DNA from: an uncultured Bacillota bacterium | GTDB lineage: Bacteria; Bacillota_I; Bacilli_A; RF39; UBA660 | NCBI GenBank assembly: GCA_900317975.1 | Contig: ONIZ01000001.1 | Location: forward strand, 199,479-263,478 | Length of the DNA: 64,000 nt | Direction of reading: 5' to 3' | Shown: positions 3,807-32,979 of the stretch, piece after piece | How positions within the stretch are numbered: position 1 is the stretch's first letter | Layout of the letters: each line of letters begins with the position of its first letter | The notes under the pieces: generated by a model | Database searches by the model: none | The model's input: only the letters and a program-made list of their open reading frames with translations | Told to the model about the DNA's origin: nothing | Program-made: the position numbers and the translations under genes

Positions 3807-6800
3807 ATGGGTAATCCAGATTTTAATAATATAAGAAAACTAAATGAGATATATACTAATAAAGCTCAACAGTCTTTAACTGAAATTCTTAAATCATTTA
3901 GTTGTATATCTAATAATATAAATCAAGAAATAATTCCCTTTAAGTATTCAAATATAAGGTTTGATGGATGTACTTCTGATGAACAACAACATTTTATCAA
4001 TGACCAGTTACAACTTATTGAATGCTTAGTAACTGATTCTATTTATGCTAAACAAGGATCTGTATATAACTGGAAATATATATATGATCTTTTGTATGAT
4101 GAGAACTATGCAAAGACAGATAAGAAATATCGTAAAGTTGTATATTCTACATCATCAACAATTCGTCCCGTTGGACAAACATCTTTTCAAACATGGAATG
4201 GACTTCAGATAATTGACTTAGATATCAAGAACAGTACAATAGCAAATTCATTAAAAGACATATTATTTGATGAGTTGTCTAAGTTTCATTGGTTTTTAGG
4301 ACTATGTAGATCAGCTTCAAGAAATTCATTACATATATGGACAAAAATCACTCCATTGACAATAGACAATAGTAAACGTAGAGTAGAATATATATGTAAT
4401 TTCAGACACAAGTATTCATATATCTATATTATATTACTTAAATATGCTTCACAGTTTGGTTATACAAAAGAAGACATCTTTAAGTATATGGATATGGCAA
4501 TGTGCAAGCCTCAACAGGGTATCTTCATATCTTCGGATAATGCTTATCTTTCAACAAATTTCTATGATACAAGATTGGATGTAAATTTTGAAGCCGCATT
4601 CAACACAGGAATAGAATCAATCAATTGGATTTCTCATAATGATCTTAAAGACATATTTGCAAAATTGGAATGGTTTACAGTTGATGAATTCTATGAGAAC
4701 AAGCATATTTCTGTGGAACAATTAGAAAACCTTACTGATTATGACAAGACAAAGGCAAAGGGAAAGAAACACTATAAGCACTCTCAACGTTGGCAGTTAG
4801 CAAATACACTTACTTCATTATTCGGAGAGGCAAAAGCATTTGAGATATTTTGTAATATATGTTCTGGTACATCAATAAGGGAGTTAAAAGGTGATATCAA
4901 GACAGCAGCAATTCATAACAAACCAATATCAAAATGGGCTGTAAAAGAATTGAACAAACAACATGGATTCAATATAAAGATAAAAGATGATAATACAGAT
5001 GTTATAGACAAAATTGCAAAAGAAATTGAAAATAGTGATAATGACAAATTAGATCCCATAAAGATATTGAATGACAAGACAGAACATGTAACATTATATA
5101 TGACAAAGGATCAATATCTAAGTGACATACAAGATCAAATTATTAGTAATTTGTCTCATATAACATTATTGGAAGCTGGTGCTGGTTATGGAAAGACGGA
5201 GATGATAAAGGGATTGAAAGCAAAGACATTATTAATATTGCCTTTCACATCAACAATAAAAGCAAAAGTTGAAGCAGATGAAAAGACGTCAGATTGGCTT
5301 TACTTCTATGGAAACAAAAGACCAGATCTTATTGACATATTGGGAACACAAAACATTTCTATGACAATTGACAAATTTTCAAGGTTGAATGTATATGAAT
5401 TGGATACAGCAAACTTTGAATATATTGTAATTGATGAGTCACATCTTCTTTTCACAAGTTCATATAGAGATGTTATGGGACCATGTATTCAAAGGTTGGC
5501 AAATTGTAAAGCAAAAATCATTATGATGACAGGAACACCAACAGGAGAAATATTGTTCTTCCCAAATATCAAACATATAAAAGTAAAGAAGGAAGATGTA
5601 AGAGACAAGACATGTGATTTTGTATTAGTTCCAACAGTAACAGAGCAGTTGTATGAAATGTGCAGATCAATTGCTGAGGATATAAGGGATGGCAAGAAGA
5701 TATTATTTCCGACAAATAAGGGCAATATATATTATGAACAGATATTAGGTATCATCCATCATATATTAGATAAAGAGTTTCATTCCGATAGGCAAATAAA
5801 GTCATTTTATTATAAGAAGGCAAAATACGGTGAAGATGCAATGGAAGACATTAATAACAATAAGACAATTGGGGACTACGATATCATATTTTGTACAACT
5901 TATCTTTCGGTAGGAGTAGACATTTGTGACAAATATAATTTTAGTATATATTTTAGTGATCCATTGATTCCTCAGGACATTGAACAGTATGCTAATAGAC
6001 TAAGAAACAATAATCTTCATATAAAAATGTTCTTACCTTATGAAGACAATAATGGATTTACAATTATTGGAGAGACAGTTAAGAAATTAGATCTATCATT
6101 TGATCAGAGGGATCTTATTTTTGCAAGAGACTTAGTGAAGACATGTAATGATATGCTTGAAAGAAATGAAGAAGAAGCAAAATATAATCCTCTTATATCT
6201 AGTCTATTGTCTACAAAAACATATTTGAAATATGATGAGAATGATTGCAGATATTATATAGATGAAACAACATATAAGTTGCATGTATTTGAAGAAAGAT
6301 ATTCAGAATTTGGAAAACAGTTGTCTATAATGGCAGATGGATTAAGATACTATGGATATAACACTCATATTATAAAGAAGACAGATAGAGCAACAGACAA
6401 TAAAGATAAAATTGATGAGATATTGAGAAACTGTAGAAACTTCAAATTCAATGAGGACACAATAAAGATAAAGAAATTCTTAAATCAACTTAATGATGGG
6501 AATATTGATTTCTATAAAGAACTTCAAAAGGGTAATTATGCAGTTTTCAGAGATAAAGATGAAAAGAATGTAAAGACCAGAGAAGAAAACAATCTATATG
6601 TTGAAGACATTGAAATATTGGAAAAGCATATGCCTATTATATCTAGTCTCTATAAATATTATGATTGTGACACTATAAGAACAATTTATGAATATTGTAT
6701 AGATCTAAAGTCTAATAGATTGAATGTCAGTAAACTAAGAAGAATCAGATCATTTGTAAGTATTGAAATGTCTAGACGAAAGAAACGATTAGACTTCCCA

Positions 6801-16827: not shown

Positions 16828-18051
16828 TTAATCCCATCCTCCTGAATAAAAAGTAGATGCTACTGTTATATCAGTGAAAGTTTCATGGAATATTTCTTCA
16901 TCATCCTTTTTACATATAACTTCAAAATCATGATTATAATAAGTAGAGAATGATGATGCATGAACAGAACTTGTCTTACTTCCATCTTTTGATGAACCTT
17001 TATCGGTTATGATGAATTTCAAATGATCTGCATCATCAAGGAAACCTTCTAATGTTTCATCTGATACGTCACCTTTAATGTTAGCCTTTTGTTCAACATC
17101 TGCATAGTATGAATCATCATTATCATTCATATACATTGAATGCCAAACTTCAAACCCATAAAGCTGATTAATTACTTTAAGTATTAAACCAACAATTGCA
17201 GTTCCTTCACAGCTGCTATCATTTGATCCTTGATAATATCTTCTGTTATGATTTGCTTTATATTCATCTTTCAATATATCAAGTAATGATCCCTTCTTTC
17301 CATTATATTCACAATATTCAATAATTGACTTAATATGGTTTTCAACACCTATAGCAAATGTTGGGCGAGCTTTCATAATAGAATTCTTTACTCCCTTTAT
17401 AGCTTTCTTTGCATCTTCTATATTTACTGGATCTGCCAAGAATGCTCTTAGTTCCTCACGTTCACTATATGTAAGATTATTCCCAGGTTTTAGATAAGAA
17501 ACTAATCTTGCTGGTTCATTCAACATTGCTGTAATTACAGAATCATCTTTTGGATAATAAGGGTTCCAGCATCTAGTGGGATCAATCTGTTTAGCAAGAA
17601 ACTTGATGTCATGCCATTTTGCCTGATTGATTTTATTTGAATATTCTTCCCACCATTTAATTAAGTCATCTTTAGTAAACTTACCATCTTCTAATTGCTG
17701 AAGAATAAATTCTCCATACGCTTCATTATCAATCACAGTTTCTTTTTCACCTTTTCTATAAGACCATTTAACTAGTTCTTTTGGAGTATAACCTGCGTTA
17801 TCAATAAGAATTTGCATTGGATATTTAGCTAACTTTTCTGCAGGACCTTTACCGGGTCTTTCATTCAAAGGTTTGTTTTTTGCTAATTTATTCTTTCTTG
17901 ATTTATCAGCTTTATCATAATCAGCAAATATTTTCTCTAATTCACGTTTAAAATATCTTGTTGATTCTGTTCCCCAAGCTTCATTAACAACCGAAACTTG
18001 TCCTAAAGATATATTAATAGATTCATTAATTTGATCTTTTAATTTTTTCAT
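16828..18051 (-). CDS. Leader-bearing probable internal virion protein
   Basis: 407 residues starting MKKLKDQINESINISLGQVS, followed by VVNEAWG. Residues 8-11 (INES) match the shared leader register, and VNEA near residue 24 is a second possible I/V-x-E protease site, as in T4 head proteins trimmed by gp21. The body is hydrophilic with a helical N-terminal half. The C-terminal half contains SSCEGTAIVGLILKVINQLYGFEVWHS and DHLKFIITDKGSS, recalling a papain-like or enzyme-like fold, but catalytic residues cannot be fixed. Virion location is inferred from the leader and neighbours. Confidence 0.6.
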   Translation of the reverse strand: MKKLKDQINESINISLGQVSVVNEAWGTESTRYFKRELEKIFADYDKADKSRKNKLAKNKPLNERPGKGPAEKLAKYPMQILIDNAGYTPKELVKWSYRKGEKETVIDNEAYGEFILQQLEDGKFTKDDLIKWWEEYSNKINQAKWHDIKFLAKQIDPTRCWNPYYPKDDSVITAMLNEPARLVSYLKPGNNLTYSEREELRAFLADPVNIEDAKKAIKGVKNSIMKARPTFAIGVENHIKSIIEYCEYNGKKGSLLDILKDEYKANHNRRYYQGSNDSSCEGTAIVGLILKVINQLYGFEVWHSMYMNDNDDSYYADVEQKANIKGDVSDETLEGFLDDADHLKFIITDKGSSKDGSKTSSVHASSFSTYYNHDFEVICKKDDEEIFHETFTDITVASTFYSGGWD

Positions 18052-24484: not shown

Positions 24485-25285
24485 ATGATTGGAATAATAG
24501 GTGCCATAGTTGGTGATTTGATAGGATGTTCATATGAATTTAAAGGAACACATGATTATAATTTTAAGTTATTGACAGAAAAATCTCATGTTACTGATGA
24601 TAGTACTTGTACAATAGCAGTAGCTGATTGGTTATTACATACGGATAGATCTCATGAAGCATTAATAGATAAATTCAAATATTGGTGCAATAAATATAAT
24701 TATGGATTTGCCCCAATGTTCAAAAATTGGGTAAATTCAGATAAAAGAGAACCTTATAATTCATTTGGGAATGGTTCAGCTATGAGAGTTTCACCTGTTG
24801 CATGGGCAGCACAATCATTAATAGAATGCATACAGCTTGCAAAGATATCTGCTGAAGTAACCCATAATCATCCTGAAGGAATTAAAGGGGCTATAACAAT
24901 TGCTGTAACAATTTGGCTATATAGACATGGATTAACAAAAGATGAAATAATTGATTATATAGTTAATAATACTGATTATAAATTACAATCTTATGATGAA
25001 TTGAAAAAGAATCATAGATTTAATTGTATTTGTCAAGTATCTGTTCCTGCATGTCTTACTTGTTGGTATGAAAGCACATCATATGAAGATTGTATACGTA
25101 AAGCAATAAGTCTTGGAGGAGATGCAGATACGGAAGGATGTATTGCTGGTAGTATTTGTAATGCTAGAGAAGATACAATGATAGATGATGAACTATTGAT
25201 AAAGTTATGTGAGAACGGCTATATACCAAATGAATTTATAGATATTATTAATGAATTCCATGATAAATATGAAATAAATACATAA
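24485..25285 (+). CDS. ADP-ribosylglycohydrolase (DraG/ARH-type)
   Basis: 266 residues, full length for the family. Signatures in order: GAIVGDLIGCSYEFKG (residues 6-21), V-TDDS-T (37-40, metal ligands), NSFGNGSAMRVSP in the middle, and ISLGGDADTEGCIAGSI with Asp213, Asp215 and Thr216 for the di-magnesium site. It should remove ADP-ribose from a protein, nucleic acid or small molecule. In a phage this could reverse ADP-ribosylation used by host defence or toxin-antitoxin systems, or regulate phage modifications. The function class is secure; the target is inferred. Confidence 0.85.
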   Translation: MIGIIGAIVGDLIGCSYEFKGTHDYNFKLLTEKSHVTDDSTCTIAVADWLLHTDRSHEALIDKFKYWCNKYNYGFAPMFKNWVNSDKREPYNSFGNGSAMRVSPVAWAAQSLIECIQLAKISAEVTHNHPEGIKGAITIAVTIWLYRHGLTKDEIIDYIVNNTDYKLQSYDELKKNHRFNCICQVSVPACLTCWYESTSYEDCIRKAISLGGDADTEGCIAGSICNAREDTMIDDELLIKLCENGYIPNEFIDIINEFHDKYEINT

Positions 25286-26986: not shown

Positions 26987-27574
26987 ATGAGCAACAAAAA
27001 GATCATTGGTATCGATTTGGGTACCACTAATTCATGCGTATCAGTTTATGAAGCTGGTGAAGCGCAAGTAATTACAAATGCTGAAGGTAAACGTACTACT
27101 CCTTCAGTTGTAGGATTTACAAAAGATGGTGAACGTAAAGTTGGAGATCCAGCAAAACGTCAAGCTATTACAAATCCTAAGAACACAGTTTATTCTATTA
27201 AGCGTTATATGGGAATGAATTATGACAAACTTAAGAAAGAAGACAAAGATGTTCCATATAACCTTATTAACGACAATAATCTTCCTAAAGTTGATATAGA
27301 AGGGAAGAAATATACTCCTCAAGAAATTTCCTCAATGATTCTAGCCAAGATGAAGAAGACAGCAGAAGACTATCTTGGTAATGAAGTTACAGAAGCAGTT
27401 GTTACTGTCCCTGCATATTTTGATGACCGTCAACGTCAAGCTACTATTGAAGCTGGTAAGATTGCTGGACTTGATGTAAAGCGTATTGTCAATGAGCCAA
27501 CCGCCGCAGCACTTGCTTATGGTGTTGACAAATCAGACAAAGATATGAAGATTGTTGTATTTGATTTCGGTGGT
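26987..27574 (+). CDS. dnaK: DnaK (Hsp70) chaperone, exon 1
   Basis: Codes for residues 1-196 of a phage Hsp70. [16 protein letters not shown] (phosphate-1 loop) at the N terminus, [16 protein letters not shown], and [14 protein letters not shown] are textbook DnaK sequences. The exon ends inside the phosphate-2 motif at IVVFDFGG. Reading on into the intron adds only 11 residues ([11 protein letters not shown]) and a stop, so unspliced message gives a truncated, inactive 207-residue product. Joined to exon 2 at 29085 it restores [12 protein letters not shown] exactly. Confidence 0.96.
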
Positions 27575-27896
27575 AAACGTCATGAAAACTGCCTCCGCGC
27601 TGCAGCTTAATTTAAGTTGTATGTGTAAAATTAAAAACTTGTTAATTGCGGAGAACCCCACGTTAATTCGATAAGAGAGCTCTAATTACCGCACTTGATG
27701 GTGACATACAAGGTAGCAGATAGCTTAATTACTATTGGATGGTAAAAAGATTAGAGATTGGGCAACCGAAATAAGCGCAGCGAAGTTTCTTAGTAATAAG
27801 AAAAACGTTCAACGACTAGAAAAAGTAATCCTATAAAAAATATCTAAAGGACCAAATTTCCATGAATACAAGTTAATCTAAAGTGGAACTTTTGAT

Positions 27897-27907
27897 TTAT
27901 TTTTAAT
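27897..27907 (+). promoter_or_regulatory. Candidate late-type promoter box inside the intron
   Basis: Exact TTATTTTTAAT, 23 nt before the endonuclease ATG, the same spacing seen before virion operons. It would let the endonuclease be made late and separately from dnaK splicing, as known for intron endonucleases of T4. Confidence 0.55.
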
Positions 27908-27929
27908 TAAATAAAATATATTAAAATTT

Positions 27930-29051
27930 ATGGAAAGTTCTAATAAAGAAGAGATCTTTGACATTTTGATTAAACACATTTTAAAAATTTTTGATGAAAA
28001 CAATAATGAAATAAAGTTTTCAGAAATAAAAATTAAAGAAACAAAATTAAAATATGCTTCAAATTCTTCAATACATGTATATTTAGATAATAATATATGT
28101 TTATCTTCAAAAGAAACAAGAAAATATAGAGTATTATATAAATGTAGATGTGGAAGAGAAAATAAAATTTTGCTTTGTAAATATTTATTAAAAAGAAAAA
28201 TAGTATGTCAACATTGTTTACAGGATAGAACATTTGAAGATCATTTAGATGTACAACCATATTCAATTAAAAAAGGGTTAAGATCAAAAATTAATAATAA
28301 CTTAAACAAGCAAAACAATGAATTGATATTTGAAAATATGAATGATGAATTTAAAACAAATTATTATTCTAATCATTTAACTAATGAGGAATTTTTTAGA
28401 TATCTTCCTTATATGTATCAAATTAATAATGTTATTATAACACCAAAAAACATTAAATTAATTAGATATTTGGAACATTATCCAACAAATAATCAATTTA
28501 AATTTACTGCTAAAGTTTCATTTGATAATGGTATAACATATAAATCAATTCAAAATATAAAATTACAATGTTCTATATGTAAAAAAATATTTAATGTACA
28601 TATTAATAACTTAAAAAATAAAGATTTATCTAATATTAAATGTAAAATGTGCTCTTTAAGTAATCATAGATATAATATTAAATTATTTGATGAATCTGGA
28701 CTTACTTATCAATCTAATCCAGAAAAATATTTTATTGAGCAGTGTTATAAATATAATATTAAAATTAATAATGGATTAAAAATTCCTTATTACTTTAATA
28801 ATTCAAATCATATATATAATTCAGATTTTTATTTACCAGAATATAATTATGTTATAGAAATTAAATCTGATAATATTTGGTACAGAAAAGATATAGAATC
28901 AGGAAAAATCAAAGCAAAAGAACAAGGCGTAGTAGAATTTGGTAAACTTTATAATATAAAATATAAAATGTTGTTTGATCAGGATATAGATAACTTTATT
29001 AAAAACATTTTAGATGAAAGAGATAGTCTAAACAATCAAGAGATTGATTGA
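27930..29051 (+). CDS. Intron-encoded homing endonuclease, PD-(D/E)xK type with two zinc ribbons
   Basis: 373 residues, very Asn/Lys/Ile-rich. Two Cys4 zinc-ribbon-like sites: Cys72/Cys74 with Cys93/Cys96, and Cys214/Cys217 with Cys238/Cys241. The C terminus contains SDFYLPEYNYVIEIKSD, giving Asp299 and Glu310-Ile-Lys312, a PD-(D/E)xK nuclease core; it ends with KYKMLFDQDIDNFIKNIL. It lies wholly within the dnaK intron and should cut intronless dnaK alleles to spread the intron. There is no LAGLIDADG, GIY-YIG or HNH motif. Its base composition is more AT-rich than that of dnaK. Confidence 0.85.
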   Translation: MESSNKEEIFDILIKHILKIFDENNNEIKFSEIKIKETKLKYASNSSIHVYLDNNICLSSKETRKYRVLYKCRCGRENKILLCKYLLKRKIVCQHCLQDRTFEDHLDVQPYSIKKGLRSKINNNLNKQNNELIFENMNDEFKTNYYSNHLTNEEFFRYLPYMYQINNVIITPKNIKLIRYLEHYPTNNQFKFTAKVSFDNGITYKSIQNIKLQCSICKKIFNVHINNLKNKDLSNIKCKMCSLSNHRYNIKLFDESGLTYQSNPEKYFIEQCYKYNIKINNGLKIPYYFNNSNHIYNSDFYLPEYNYVIEIKSDNIWYRKDIESGKIKAKEQGVVEFGKLYNIKYKMLFDQDIDNFIKNILDERDSLNNQEID

Positions 29052-29084
29052 AATTAAGATAAAGAGCTTAATGATAATAAAATG

Positions 29085-30452
29085 GGTACTCATGATGTAT
29101 CTATTCTTGAATTCGGTTCAGGTGTATTTGAAGTATTAGCAACAAGTGGTGATACACATCTTGGTGGTGATGATATTGACAATGTTGTTATGAAGTATCT
29201 TACCGATGAATTCAAGAATGACAAGGGAATTGATCTTACAAAAGATCCTATGGCAATGCAACGTGTAAAGGAAGCAGCTGAAAAAGCAAAGATTGAATTA
29301 TCATCAACTACATCATCAGAAATCAATCTTCCTTATATTACTGCTAATGAAAATGGACCACAACATTTGGTAATGACATTAACAAGAGCGAAGTTTGAAC
29401 AGTTGATTGATTCTATTGTAAAGAAAACTATTGAGCCTTGCCGTCTTGCATTAGAGCAAGCTAAGCTTTCTACTAAAGACATTGATGAGATTCTGTTGGT
29501 TGGTGGATCTACACGTATTCCTGCTATTCAGGAAGCTGTAAAGAACTTCTTTGGCAAGGAAGCATCTAAGGGAATCAATCCTGATGAAGCTGTTGCTATT
29601 GGAGCATCTATTCAGGGAGCTATTCTCAATAAAGATGAAGGTGTTGGTGATATTGTACTTCTTGATGTAACTCCTATCTCTATGGGTATTGAAGCACATA
29701 CACAATTTGATCCTGATGGAAGAATGGCAAAGATCATTGAAGCACAAACAACAATTCCTTGTAAGAAGAGTCAGACATTTACAACAGCTGTAGACAACCA
29801 GTCAGCAGTTACTATTGTAGTACTTCAGGGAGAACGTACATATGCTAAAGATTGCAAGACTATTGGAACATTCAATCTTGAAGGCATTGCTCCAGCTAAA
29901 GCAGGTATTCCACAGATTGAAGTATCATTTGATATTGATGCTAATGGTGTATTGAATGTATCTGCTAAAGACAAGGCTACAGGTAAGGAACAGCAAATCA
30001 CAATTTCTAACAACAATCTTTCAGATGCAGAAATTGAACAAATGAAGGCTGATGCAGAAGCACATAAGGAAGAGGACAAGAAGAGAGAAGAACAAATGAA
30101 CAAGCTTAATATGGCTCAATTCTTGATTAACTCAATTGACCAGATGTTTGAAGATGAAAATATGAAAGACAAGATTACTGAGGAAGATAAGAACAATATC
30201 ACTCCTGCTAAAGACAATCTTGCTGAAGTATTGAAAGAATATCAAACAGCTGAAGACAAGGAAGATGCAATGCTTAAAGTTGAAGAAGCTCAAAAGGCTT
30301 TGGAAGAAGTATGGAATCCTTTAGTAAAGAAACTTTATATTGATCCTAATGCTGCCGCTAATAATGAAGGTGGTAATCCTTTTACAGGAGATAATCCATT
30401 TGCTGGACAAGGTATTGATCCTTCACAATTTGCAGGAGCAGCAAATAAATAA
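29085..30452 (+). CDS. dnaK: DnaK (Hsp70) chaperone, exon 2
   Basis: Codes for 455 residues, giving 651 with exon 1 (E. coli DnaK has 638). Continues [17 protein letters not shown], then [27 protein letters not shown], the linker [15 protein letters not shown] and the substrate-binding beta domain, ending in a flexible Asn/Gly/Pro-rich tail ([18 protein letters not shown]). The LLDVTP linker is close to the bacterial LLLDVTPLSLG with small changes. An ATG at 29082 belongs to the intron, not to the mature message. It is an ATP-driven chaperone, probably for folding virion proteins or replication proteins. Confidence 0.96.
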
Positions 30453-30485
30453 AAATATATTAATTAAAAATTGGAGGTAATTATT

Positions 30486-30929
30486 ATGACAAATGCTTTA
30501 AGTTTTAAGAATCGTGACAATTTATTTGGTTTTATGCCAACATTTATGTCAAATTGGTTTGACGATTTCGGAATGATTCCATCAAACTTTACCAATTCCC
30601 CAAAGGTTAATGTAAAGGAAACTGATAAAGCTTATGAAATAGAAATTGCCAACCCAGGTTTCGGAAAAGAAGACACTAAGATTGAAGTAAAAGATGGTTC
30701 TCTTTATGTTTCTATGACATCTCAATCTGAAGAAGGAGAAAATGATGGAAACAAATACCATGTAAGACAATGGTCTAAATCATCTTATGAAGAATCTTGG
30801 TATCTACCTGAAAATGTAATTGAAGATCAAATTTCAGCAAAACATACTGATGGTGTTCTTACAATTACACTTCCAAAAAAGGAAGTACAGAAATCTCATG
30901 AAGATCCAAAAATAATTAATATTGAATAA
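30486..30929 (+). CDS. Small heat-shock protein (Hsp20/alpha-crystallin)
   Basis: 147 residues. Alpha-crystallin domain from about residue 37: PKVNVKETDKAYEIEIANPG, then KIEVKDGSLYVSM, then YEESWYLPENVIEDQISAKHTDGVLTITLPK, where the GVLTITLPK strand is the family hallmark. An ATP-independent holdase that keeps clients foldable for DnaK/DnaJ. ATG 30486 is preferred over an in-frame TTG at 30471, because a strong GGAGG lies 10 nt upstream, unusual in this window. Operon with dnaK and followed by a terminator. Confidence 0.93.
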   Translation: MTNALSFKNRDNLFGFMPTFMSNWFDDFGMIPSNFTNSPKVNVKETDKAYEIEIANPGFGKEDTKIEVKDGSLYVSMTSQSEEGENDGNKYHVRQWSKSSYEESWYLPENVIEDQISAKHTDGVLTITLPKKEVQKSHEDPKIINIE

Positions 30930-30950
30930 TATCATATTGTTAGGTTTAGA

Positions 30951-30977
30951 GGGATGGGTCTGATCCCATCCCCTTTT
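30951..30977 (+). terminator. Rho-independent terminator between hsp20 and dnaJ
   Basis: GGGATGGG (30951-30958), 6-nt loop, CCCATCCC (30965-30972), then CTTTTATATTTTATTTTG. A strong GC stem in an AT-rich genome; it may let dnaJ levels differ from dnaK/hsp20. Confidence 0.8.
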
Positions 30978-30993
30978 ATATTTTATTTTGTTT

Positions 30994-32070
30994 ATGAGTA
31001 AAGATTATTATAAGATATTAGGAATTGATAAGAATGCTTCAGAAGATGATATTAAGAAAGCATTCAAAAAAGGAGCTATCAAATGGCATCCTGATAGATG
31101 GTCTAATAAGTCAGAAAAGGAAAAAGAAAATGCTGAAAAGAACTTCAAAGAGATTAATGAAGCTAATGAAGTATTGTCGGATCCTGAAAAGAGAAAACTA
31201 TATGATCAGTTTGGAGCTGATTGGGAAAATGTAGCTAATCAAGGTGGTGGTTTTGATGGTTTTAGTGATCTTGGAAGTTTCTTTAGACATATGCATAGTG
31301 GCATGGATTCATTCTTTGGTGGTAGACAACAACCACAAGGTCCACGTCCAGGCCAAGATGTTCAAGTAAGATATGGAATAAGTATTGAAGAAATATATAA
31401 TGGATGCAATAAGCAAATTGAAGTAACTGTTAAGGGTAGATGTGAAGAATGTCATGGAACCGGTGGAGATAAAGAAACATGTTCACACTGTCATGGTACT
31501 GGTATGATTACAAATGTTCAAAGAACAGCATTTGGTATTATTCAGAATTCTTCACCTTGTCCTTATTGCCATGGACTTGGTAGTATAACTAAAAACAAAT
31601 GTCATAAATGCCATGGTGAAGGAATGGTCAATTTAACAAGAAAGATCAAACTAAACATTAAGCCATTTACTGCTAATGGAACAAATCTTAAGTTAACAGG
31701 AATGGGATATGAGTCAAAAGATGATCATGGCCTTAATGGAGATCTTTATGTAAATATCTATTATGATATTGATCCAGACAAATATGTTATAAACGGAAAT
31801 ACTGTATATGAAAAGATAAAGATCCCTTATTATGATTGTATATTGGGAACAACAAAGAAAGTTAGGCTTCCAAATAATACTGAAGAAGAAATAACAGTAA
31901 AACAATATTCATCAGAAGGTGATCAAATTATTTTACCCGGTAAAGGAATAAATGGAGGCAAATATATTTTCGTTGTTTCTGTAGATATGCCAAAACGACA
32001 ATTGTTAAAGGGAATATCTGATAAAGAAAAGAAACTATTGAAAGAAATAAAGAAAATGCATGATTCTTAA
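30994..32070 (+). CDS. dnaJ: DnaJ (Hsp40) co-chaperone
   Basis: 358 residues from MSKDYYKILGIDKNAS (an ATG two codons earlier is in frame). J domain with HPD at residues 32-34, a Gly/Phe-rich region (GGGFDGFSDLGSFF...FFGG), four CxxCxGxG zinc-finger repeats (CEECHGTG, CSHCHGTG, CPYCHGLG, CHKCHGEG), and the C-terminal client-binding domains ending in KKMHDS. A complete class A DnaJ that should activate the phage DnaK. No GrpE gene is seen in the window. The stop codon lies inside the terminator palindrome. Confidence 0.94.
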   Translation: MSKDYYKILGIDKNASEDDIKKAFKKGAIKWHPDRWSNKSEKEKENAEKNFKEINEANEVLSDPEKRKLYDQFGADWENVANQGGGFDGFSDLGSFFRHMHSGMDSFFGGRQQPQGPRPGQDVQVRYGISIEEIYNGCNKQIEVTVKGRCEECHGTGGDKETCSHCHGTGMITNVQRTAFGIIQNSSPCPYCHGLGSITKNKCHKCHGEGMVNLTRKIKLNIKPFTANGTNLKLTGMGYESKDDHGLNGDLYVNIYYDIDPDKYVINGNTVYEKIKIPYYDCILGTTKKVRLPNNTEEEITVKQYSSEGDQIILPGKGINGGKYIFVVSVDMPKRQLLKGISDKEKKLLKEIKKMHDS

Positions 32071-32091: not shown

Positions 32092-32979
32092 TTATTTATA
32101 CCATGCTGGTGGATTTCCTTCTAATGGAGATTCATCAAACATCCATCTCATATCTTGAACATTACTTACATCCCATTTAGATATGTCTCCATTAAATTTT
32201 GAACTATAGAACATACAACTCATATTTTCAACATTGATAACATTCCATTTCGATATATCTTGATTGAATTTAGAATCATAAAACATATATCCCATATCTT
32301 TAACTTTACTTACATTCCATTGAGATATATCATTATTGAATTCAGATTCTTCAAACATATGACCCATATTTTTAGCATTCCTAATATCCCACTGAGATAT
32401 ATCTATGTTAAATTTATATCCATAAAACATGTATTGCATATCTTCAGCTTTGCTTACATCCCAGTTAGATATATTTTGATTAAATTTAGAATATGAAAAC
32501 ATCCATGACATATCTTTAACACTACTTACATCCCAATCAGAAATATCTTGATTAAATTTAGATTCAGCAAACATACTAGACATATTATTAACATTACTTA
32601 CATCCCATTTAGATATGTCTTGATTAAATTTAGATTCAGCAAACATATATTGCATATTTTCAACATTATGTATATCCCATAAAGAGATATCTCCATTGAA
32701 TTTTGATCTACAAAATATATATGACATATCCTCAACATTACTTACATCCCATTCAGAAATATCCCCATTAAATTTAGATGAAAAAAATAATTTAGACATA
32801 TCAGTAATTTTTGATGTATCTATATCATTAATATCTGCATCAATACCTCTTTCTTTAATTAATTTTTTTATTAATTTTTGTAGTTCATCTTTTGTTTTTG
32901 GATGATAATTATATTGATGGGTCAAATTGTCTTTTGATAGACGAAATTTCTCTGTTATAAACTGGTTTAGTTTCTTCAT
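32092..32979 (-). CDS. BspA-like (DUF285) repeat protein, nine units (longest)
   Basis: 295 residues with nine repeats, the largest family member in the window. Leader MKKLNQFITEKFRLSKDN and linker THQYNYHPKT are shared with the gene at 55721. Units 2-5 (…SLWDIHNVENMQYMFAES…) nearly match units 2-5 of the gene at 55012, which lies about 23 kb away. Several units use NQDIS, NIDIS or NNDIS in place of NGDIS. It is the last gene of array 2, ending 8 nt from the terminator. Confidence 0.88.
   Translation of the reverse strand: MKKLNQFITEKFRLSKDNLTHQYNYHPKTKDELQKLIKKLIKERGIDADINDIDTSKITDMSKLFFSSKFNGDISEWDVSNVEDMSYIFCRSKFNGDISLWDIHNVENMQYMFAESKFNQDISKWDVSNVNNMSSMFAESKFNQDISDWDVSSVKDMSWMFSYSKFNQNISNWDVSKAEDMQYMFYGYKFNIDISQWDIRNAKNMGHMFEESEFNNDISQWNVSKVKDMGYMFYDSKFNQDISKWNVINVENMSCMFYSSKFNGDISKWDVSNVQDMRWMFDESPLEGNPPAWYK

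Follow-up and report, generated by a model that had tools for sequence, protein, structure and literature searches.

A probable mobile group I intron with a putative homing endonuclease interrupts the dnaK gene of huge phages

INTRODUCTION

T4-type phages carry mobile group I introns in the genes td, nrdB, and sunY. A review from 2014 names the genes for polymerase, ribonucleotide reductase, and terminase as hosts of phage introns. Among huge phages, the intron-encoded endonuclease gp210 of PhiPA3 can act against a co-infecting phage (PMC11620839), and Jug phages harbor many group I introns in terL, nrdD, and DNA polymerase genes, with splicing seen in metatranscriptomes for some of them (PMC12363816). 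That open reading frames (ORFs) overlap with intron cores is likewise known (PMC3984707). For the Prevotella-associated Lak megaphages, introns were described in tRNA genes, where they were called enigmatic, and none was reported in dnaK (Devoto 2019; PMC6784885). In this study, we closely examined a split dnaK gene of a huge phage, for which a preliminary description had proposed an endonuclease-encoding group I intron. Our literature search found no report of an intron in a phage dnaK, which, together with the host genes listed in the 2014 review, supports the earlier view that a chaperone gene is an uncommon intron host.

RESULTS

The split dnaK gene and its surroundings

The stretch of DNA analyzed here (64,000 nucleotides; the window) belongs to a 410,106-bp contig of a huge phage (IMG/VR UViG_2799112330_000002; G000:C82) that is, in the genes concerned, a distant relative of the Lak megaphages, with DnaK and the endonuclease about 50% identical. 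A chaperone cluster consisting of dnaK, hsp20, and dnaJ is located at window positions 26987-32070. It is preceded by an ADP-ribosylglycohydrolase gene (24485-25285) and followed by a gene for a protein with tandem repeats of the SKFN.DIS.WDVSNV type (32092-32979). The long ORFs of the window end in TAA (47), TAG (6), or TGA (4), and TAG apparently serves as a stop here, unlike in the Lak code, where it stands for glutamine; the related Lak endonuclease reads TAG as a sense codon.

The dnaK gene is present on many viral contigs, which would agree with the suggestion in the preliminary description that it may be important for this phage. It is split between positions 27574 and 29085, within the phosphate-2 motif of Hsp70 (DFGG/GTHD). 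The features of the locus are as follows:

26987..27574, + strand: dnaK exon 1, Hsp70 residues 1-196, last residues DFGG (ORF; Pfam HSP70 positions 1-196)
27575..29084, + strand: group I intron, 1510 nt (L068 and Lak-A1/A2 have empty alleles at this nucleotide; covariance models; covariation)
27930..29051, + strand: endonuclease ORF, 373 amino acids, in the P8 loop, with a C-terminal PD-(D/E)XK-type domain (E265, D299, E310, K312) behind two Cys4 clusters
29085..30452, + strand: dnaK exon 2, 455 amino acids, begins GTHDVS (Pfam HSP70 positions 196-591)

Exon 1 ends in ...GATTTCGGTGGT (27574), and exon 2 begins with GGTACTCATGAT (29085). As in the preliminary description, joining 27574 to 29085 in translation restores an Hsp70 of 651 residues with DFGG/GTHDVS at the junction, and the two halves (1-196 and 196-591) cover the Pfam HSP70 profile without a gap. 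Without splicing, the first frame stops 11 codons into the intron, at 27610.

Predicted RNA structure of the intron

A helix model comprising P1, P3, P4, P6, P6a, P7, P8, P9, P9.1, and P10 was read off six introns. In the window, its elements lie as follows:

27569..27574, + strand: P1 5' strand, exon GGUGGU (pairs with the internal guide sequence; G-C in the window, U-A in Lak)
27588..27596, + strand: P10 5' strand ACU (27588-27590) and internal guide sequence GCCUCC (27591-27596) (hand model, covariation)
27637..27650, + strand: P3 5' strand (27637-27642) and P4 5' strand (27647-27650) (hand model, covariation)
27698..27707, + strand: hairpin with GNRA tetraloop GUGA, P5 extension (read from the sequence; same GGTGACATAC in Lak)
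27776..27818, + strand: P4 3' strand (27776-27779), P6/P6a (27781-27807), and R element TTCAACGACTA with the P7 5' strand (27814-27818) (core model match)
27868..27882, + strand: P3 3' strand (27868-27873) and P8 5' strand (27876-27882) (hand model, covariation)
29009..29028, + strand: P8 3' strand (29009-29015) and P7 3' strand UAGUC (29024-29028), within the end of the endonuclease ORF (3' model, hand model)
29033..29071, + strand: P9 (29033-29046) and P9.1 with a conserved AUAAAGA loop (29054-29071) (3' model match)
29084..29087, + strand: terminal G of the intron, followed by exon GGU as the P10 3' strand (P10 changes with the 3' exon)

The elements named in the preliminary description were all recovered: the exon ends in U and the intron in G, P1 forms between exon GGUGGU and the guide sequence at 27591-27596, the GNRA hairpin reads AUG-GUGA-CAU at 27698-27707, and the R element is found at 27808-27818. 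P1 contains one U-U mismatch and, at the 5' splice site, the U.G wobble pair characteristic of group I introns. Further group I characters recovered here are the terminal G, a P10 formed with the 3' exon, and the P3-P8 and P4-P6 domains, with P7 formed by the R and S elements.

Across the six introns, 283 of 294 cells are paired (96.3%), a percentage that flatters the model since its strands were hand-picked from the same sequences and then scored; with the partner strands slid by 1 to 3 columns as a control, pairing falls to 37-45%. The stronger point is the two-sided changes at 31 of the 49 pairs. None of 500 shuffles reached this result. P7 is invariant among the compared introns and hence contributes nothing to the covariation. 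P1 tracks the change in the exon (G-C in the window, U-A in Lak), and P10 follows the 3' exon (GGU/ACU, GGA/UCU, and UCA/UGU). In the test for subgroup IA, which concerns an extra hairpin between the P7 5' and P3 3' strands, UCCU/AGGA-type hairpins are readable in the window and in Lak and are reported here unscored. Minimum-energy folding of the 5' part was uninformative (window, z = -0.9, little better than shuffles; Lak, z = -3.3).

Covariance models

A covariance-model search had been named as a check of group I identity, with a blank set beforehand as the refuting outcome, and Rfam RF00028 gave no match at the intron, either at the gathering score or at E values up to 10. This is a miss of that model and not a refutation: a match to RF00028 serves as a yardstick and does not define a group I intron, and the model is also blank at the loci with Lak copies and at the ORF-less sister intron in nrdA (L039). 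We built two small covariance models on introns from other phages, including Rfam-positive ones (L038, L040, L042, and L043), and kept window and Lak sequences out of the training. The 3' model R1 (S, P9, and P9.1) matched positions 29020-29077 (72 bits, E = 1.5e-12), and the core model R2 (P4', P6, and R) matched 27772-27818 (66 bits, E = 7.7e-15); since the training sets include other dnaK introns (L052, L063, and L090), these matches are independent evidence with respect to the window but not with respect to the site. The rest of the window contained no R1 or R2 match better than E = 1.6, and the dnaK intron was the sole match of the core model in the whole bin (G000). The intron copies in Lak were also matched by group I models, and the empty Lak-A1 locus was not.

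Further group I matches were observed outside the window. Two of them lie in the tRNA array of the same contig between apparent tRNA gene halves, one at 4720-4948 (L001 1501-1729; 46.6 bits) and one at 17079-17290 (L002 1501-1712; 34.7 bits); the Lak tRNA introns may be of the same kind as these tRNA-array matches. Other Lak loci with group I matches are L148 (Lak-A1 209334-209571) and L149 (Lak-B5 158838-160200). The crAss-like phage cr108_1 harbors an unannotated group I intron between two deposited coding sequences (L038 2372-2690; Rfam 80 bits).

Occupied, decayed, and empty sites in other phages

The same intron sits at the identical dnaK nucleotide in four phage lineages, namely the window phage, the Lak megaphages, and two more. 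Full introns are found in Lak-B1, B2, B3, B5, B6, and B9 (1501 nt) and in Lak-C1 (1502 nt), and the IMG/VR loci L052, L090, and L063 (3' part only) also carry it in dnaK. In Lak-B4, B7, and B8, the intron is reduced to 584 nt by deletion of most of the endonuclease, with the core kept, and in Lak-A1 and A2 the site is empty. All three kinds of allele (empty, full, and decayed) thus occur within the Lak group. In the set L068-L147, L119 lacks exon 1; of the remaining 79 viral dnaK loci, which could be resolved, 78 have an empty site and one, L090, is occupied. The nearest DnaK relative of the window phage (L068, 90% identical) has an empty site with the exact junction GATTTCGGTGGT/GGGACCCATGAT, and the intron boundaries are fixed by this allele and those of Lak-A1/A2. 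On the DnaK tree, the distribution is patchy, and the presence of the intron requires 5 changes, at least 4 of them forced by well-supported branches.

The putative intron-encoded endonuclease

The endonuclease gene that had been proposed to lie within the intron corresponds to the ORF at 27930-29051, whose final codons double as the 3' strands of P8 and P7 and extend to P9. Homologues in Lak, L052, and L090 show 34-49% identity to the window protein, and E265, D299, E310, and K312, the residues expected of a PD-(D/E)XK active site, are invariant across them. Two Cys4 clusters (C72, C74, C93, and C96; C214, C217, C238, and C241) lie N-terminal to the nuclease domain. Pfam yielded no significant family for the endonuclease; a profile search pointed weakly to T7 endonuclease I (E = 0.02), and phmmer aligned a stretch SDFYLP with PDFLLP of that enzyme. 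Given the middling quality of the full-length structure model (pTM 0.39), we modeled the C-terminal domain separately (pLDDT 88.9, pTM 0.81). Searches with this model returned phage endonucleases from a viral structure library (best E = 5e-8), from which alone the significance derives, and PvuRts1I, I-Bth0305I, TnsA, and Vsr from the PDB, all weak (best E = 0.02). The predicted fold supports an endonuclease of the PD-(D/E)XK type (endonuclease I/TnsA/Vsr-like) behind two Cys4 clusters.

No relatives of the endonuclease were found in the bacterial and archaeal genome contigs searched. As a candidate cutting target, the host dnaK matches 23 of the central 30 bases of the site. Directly upstream of dnaK in Lak-B5 (L005 3884-5008), a free-standing ORF with a nuclease-like motif, DFYFP...GIEYQGKQ, was observed; in Lak-C1 it is absent from this place.

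Exon differences beside the insertion site

Comparison of Lak-C1 (intron) with Lak-A1 (empty) revealed upstream differences at -7, -31, -37, and -40 and then none to -590, i.e., four sites within 40 nt and none in the next 550 (Fisher p = 5e-5). On the downstream side, differences are seen at +15, +18, and +84, and the next one only at +342. At -7, +15, and +18, Lak-C1 has the bases of the B genomes. Between Lak-B4 and B5, exon 1 differs mainly at -10, -31, and -37, and 11 of 375 intron positions are different. The clustering of differences beside the site in near-identical Lak genomes is the pattern predicted by short co-conversion tracts from repeated homing and lends indirect support to cutting of the intron-free allele near the insertion site; a recombination hotspot with a different origin may also account for it.

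DISCUSSION

The preliminary reading of the locus, a phage dnaK interrupted by an endonuclease-encoding group I intron, is upheld by compensatory pairs, covariance models, empty-site alleles, and the PD-(D/E)XK fold. Judging from the sequences, we give a probability of roughly 93% to positions 27575-29084 being a mobile, self-excising group I intron with its own homing endonuclease. From the structure, the boundaries, and the traces of mobility, all read directly in the genomes, we infer splicing and DNA cutting as follows. In the dnaK transcript, the intron would fold (P1 to P10) and excise itself via two GTP-started transesterifications, joining DFGG to GTHD to yield full-length Hsp70. The ORF product, putatively a zinc-finger PD-(D/E)XK endonuclease, would cut dnaK at the unoccupied site in co-infecting phages, and repair of the cut would copy the intron in and convert short exon tracts, of which the genomes bear traces. 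Later, the endonuclease would decay, and empty sites would stay open to invasion. It is conceivable, if rather doubtful, that the endonuclease is also kept as a weapon against co-infecting huge phages without the intron (e.g., the L068 lineage), whose chaperone gene it would disable, by analogy with PhiPA3 gp210 and the polymerase gene of PhiKZ.

Some room is left for an intron that splices but whose endonuclease is no longer active, so that the element is now inherited vertically. The nearest DnaK relative, L068, has an empty site, so the window's own clade gives no indication of recent spread, and decayed ORFs exist in Lak. However, the window ORF is full length with its four putative catalytic residues and both Cys4 clusters, and homologues occupy the same site in four patchy lineages, which makes this reading unlikely.

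Far less probable is an inactive fossil that leaves dnaK split and either dead or translated as two separate fragments. The N-terminal ORF indeed stops at 27610, and an ATG at the exon 2 junction (29082) could start a C-terminal fragment, but the pairing is intact, P1 and P10 track exon changes, the core is kept in Lak alleles that lost the endonuclease, and both exons remain intact frames. The junction ATG was also considered as a conserved start of the C-terminal fragment and rejected, as it is absent in Lak (AAATAG/GGT). Inteins can also occupy conserved motifs and the contig stems from a metagenome-type assembly, but an intein or an assembly artefact in place of an intron is refuted by the in-frame stop 11 codons in, by the same arrangement in Lak-B, Lak-C1, L052, and L090 from other samples, and by the group I structure.

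If positions 27575-29084 are, as we favor, a mobile intron, a chaperone gene joins the short list of phage genes colonized by homing introns. While the kind of element is already known, dnaK as the host gene, the four occupied phage lineages, and the presence of all three states of the homing cycle are new. One site is occupied in four huge-phage lineages, and the coexistence of empty, occupied, and endonuclease-dead alleles in closely related Lak genomes offers a rare view of this cycle in wild phages. Such introns break the annotation of dnaK in huge phages and are missed by Rfam; a split phage Hsp70 is not necessarily a pseudogene.

Compared to described systems, the dnaK intron resembles those of Jug phages as a group I intron of huge gut phages, the difference being that dnaK is not mentioned among the Jug host genes (PMC12363816). 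With the gp210 intron in the virion RNA polymerase gene of PhiPA3, it shares an endonuclease-bearing group I intron at a conserved motif of a huge phage (PMC11620839), while gp210 is an HNH nuclease tested experimentally and the dnaK intron encodes a predicted PD-(D/E)XK enzyme; the PhiPA3 locus (L040) is Rfam-positive. The td, nrdB, and sunY introns of T4-type phages have in common with it a self-splicing fold, the exon-end U and intron-end G, an intron-encoded endonuclease, and a conserved host motif, and it differs from them in its chaperone host, its PD-(D/E)XK-type nuclease, and an ORF in the P8 loop that runs into P8 and P7. The ORF-less sister intron in ribonucleotide reductase genes, observed in L039 (2400-2715; LR756504) and L062, adjoins an apparent intein end. 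In the 636-kb phage LR756504, this nrdA intron has the same 3' domain as the dnaK intron (P9, and P9.1 with the AUAAAGA loop) and the same 5' exon target, GGUGGU, but no ORF (304 nt) and ribonucleotide reductase as the host gene. The same 6-nt P1 target (GGTGGT) in L039/L062 and in dnaK makes movement between Gly-Gly codon sites possible.
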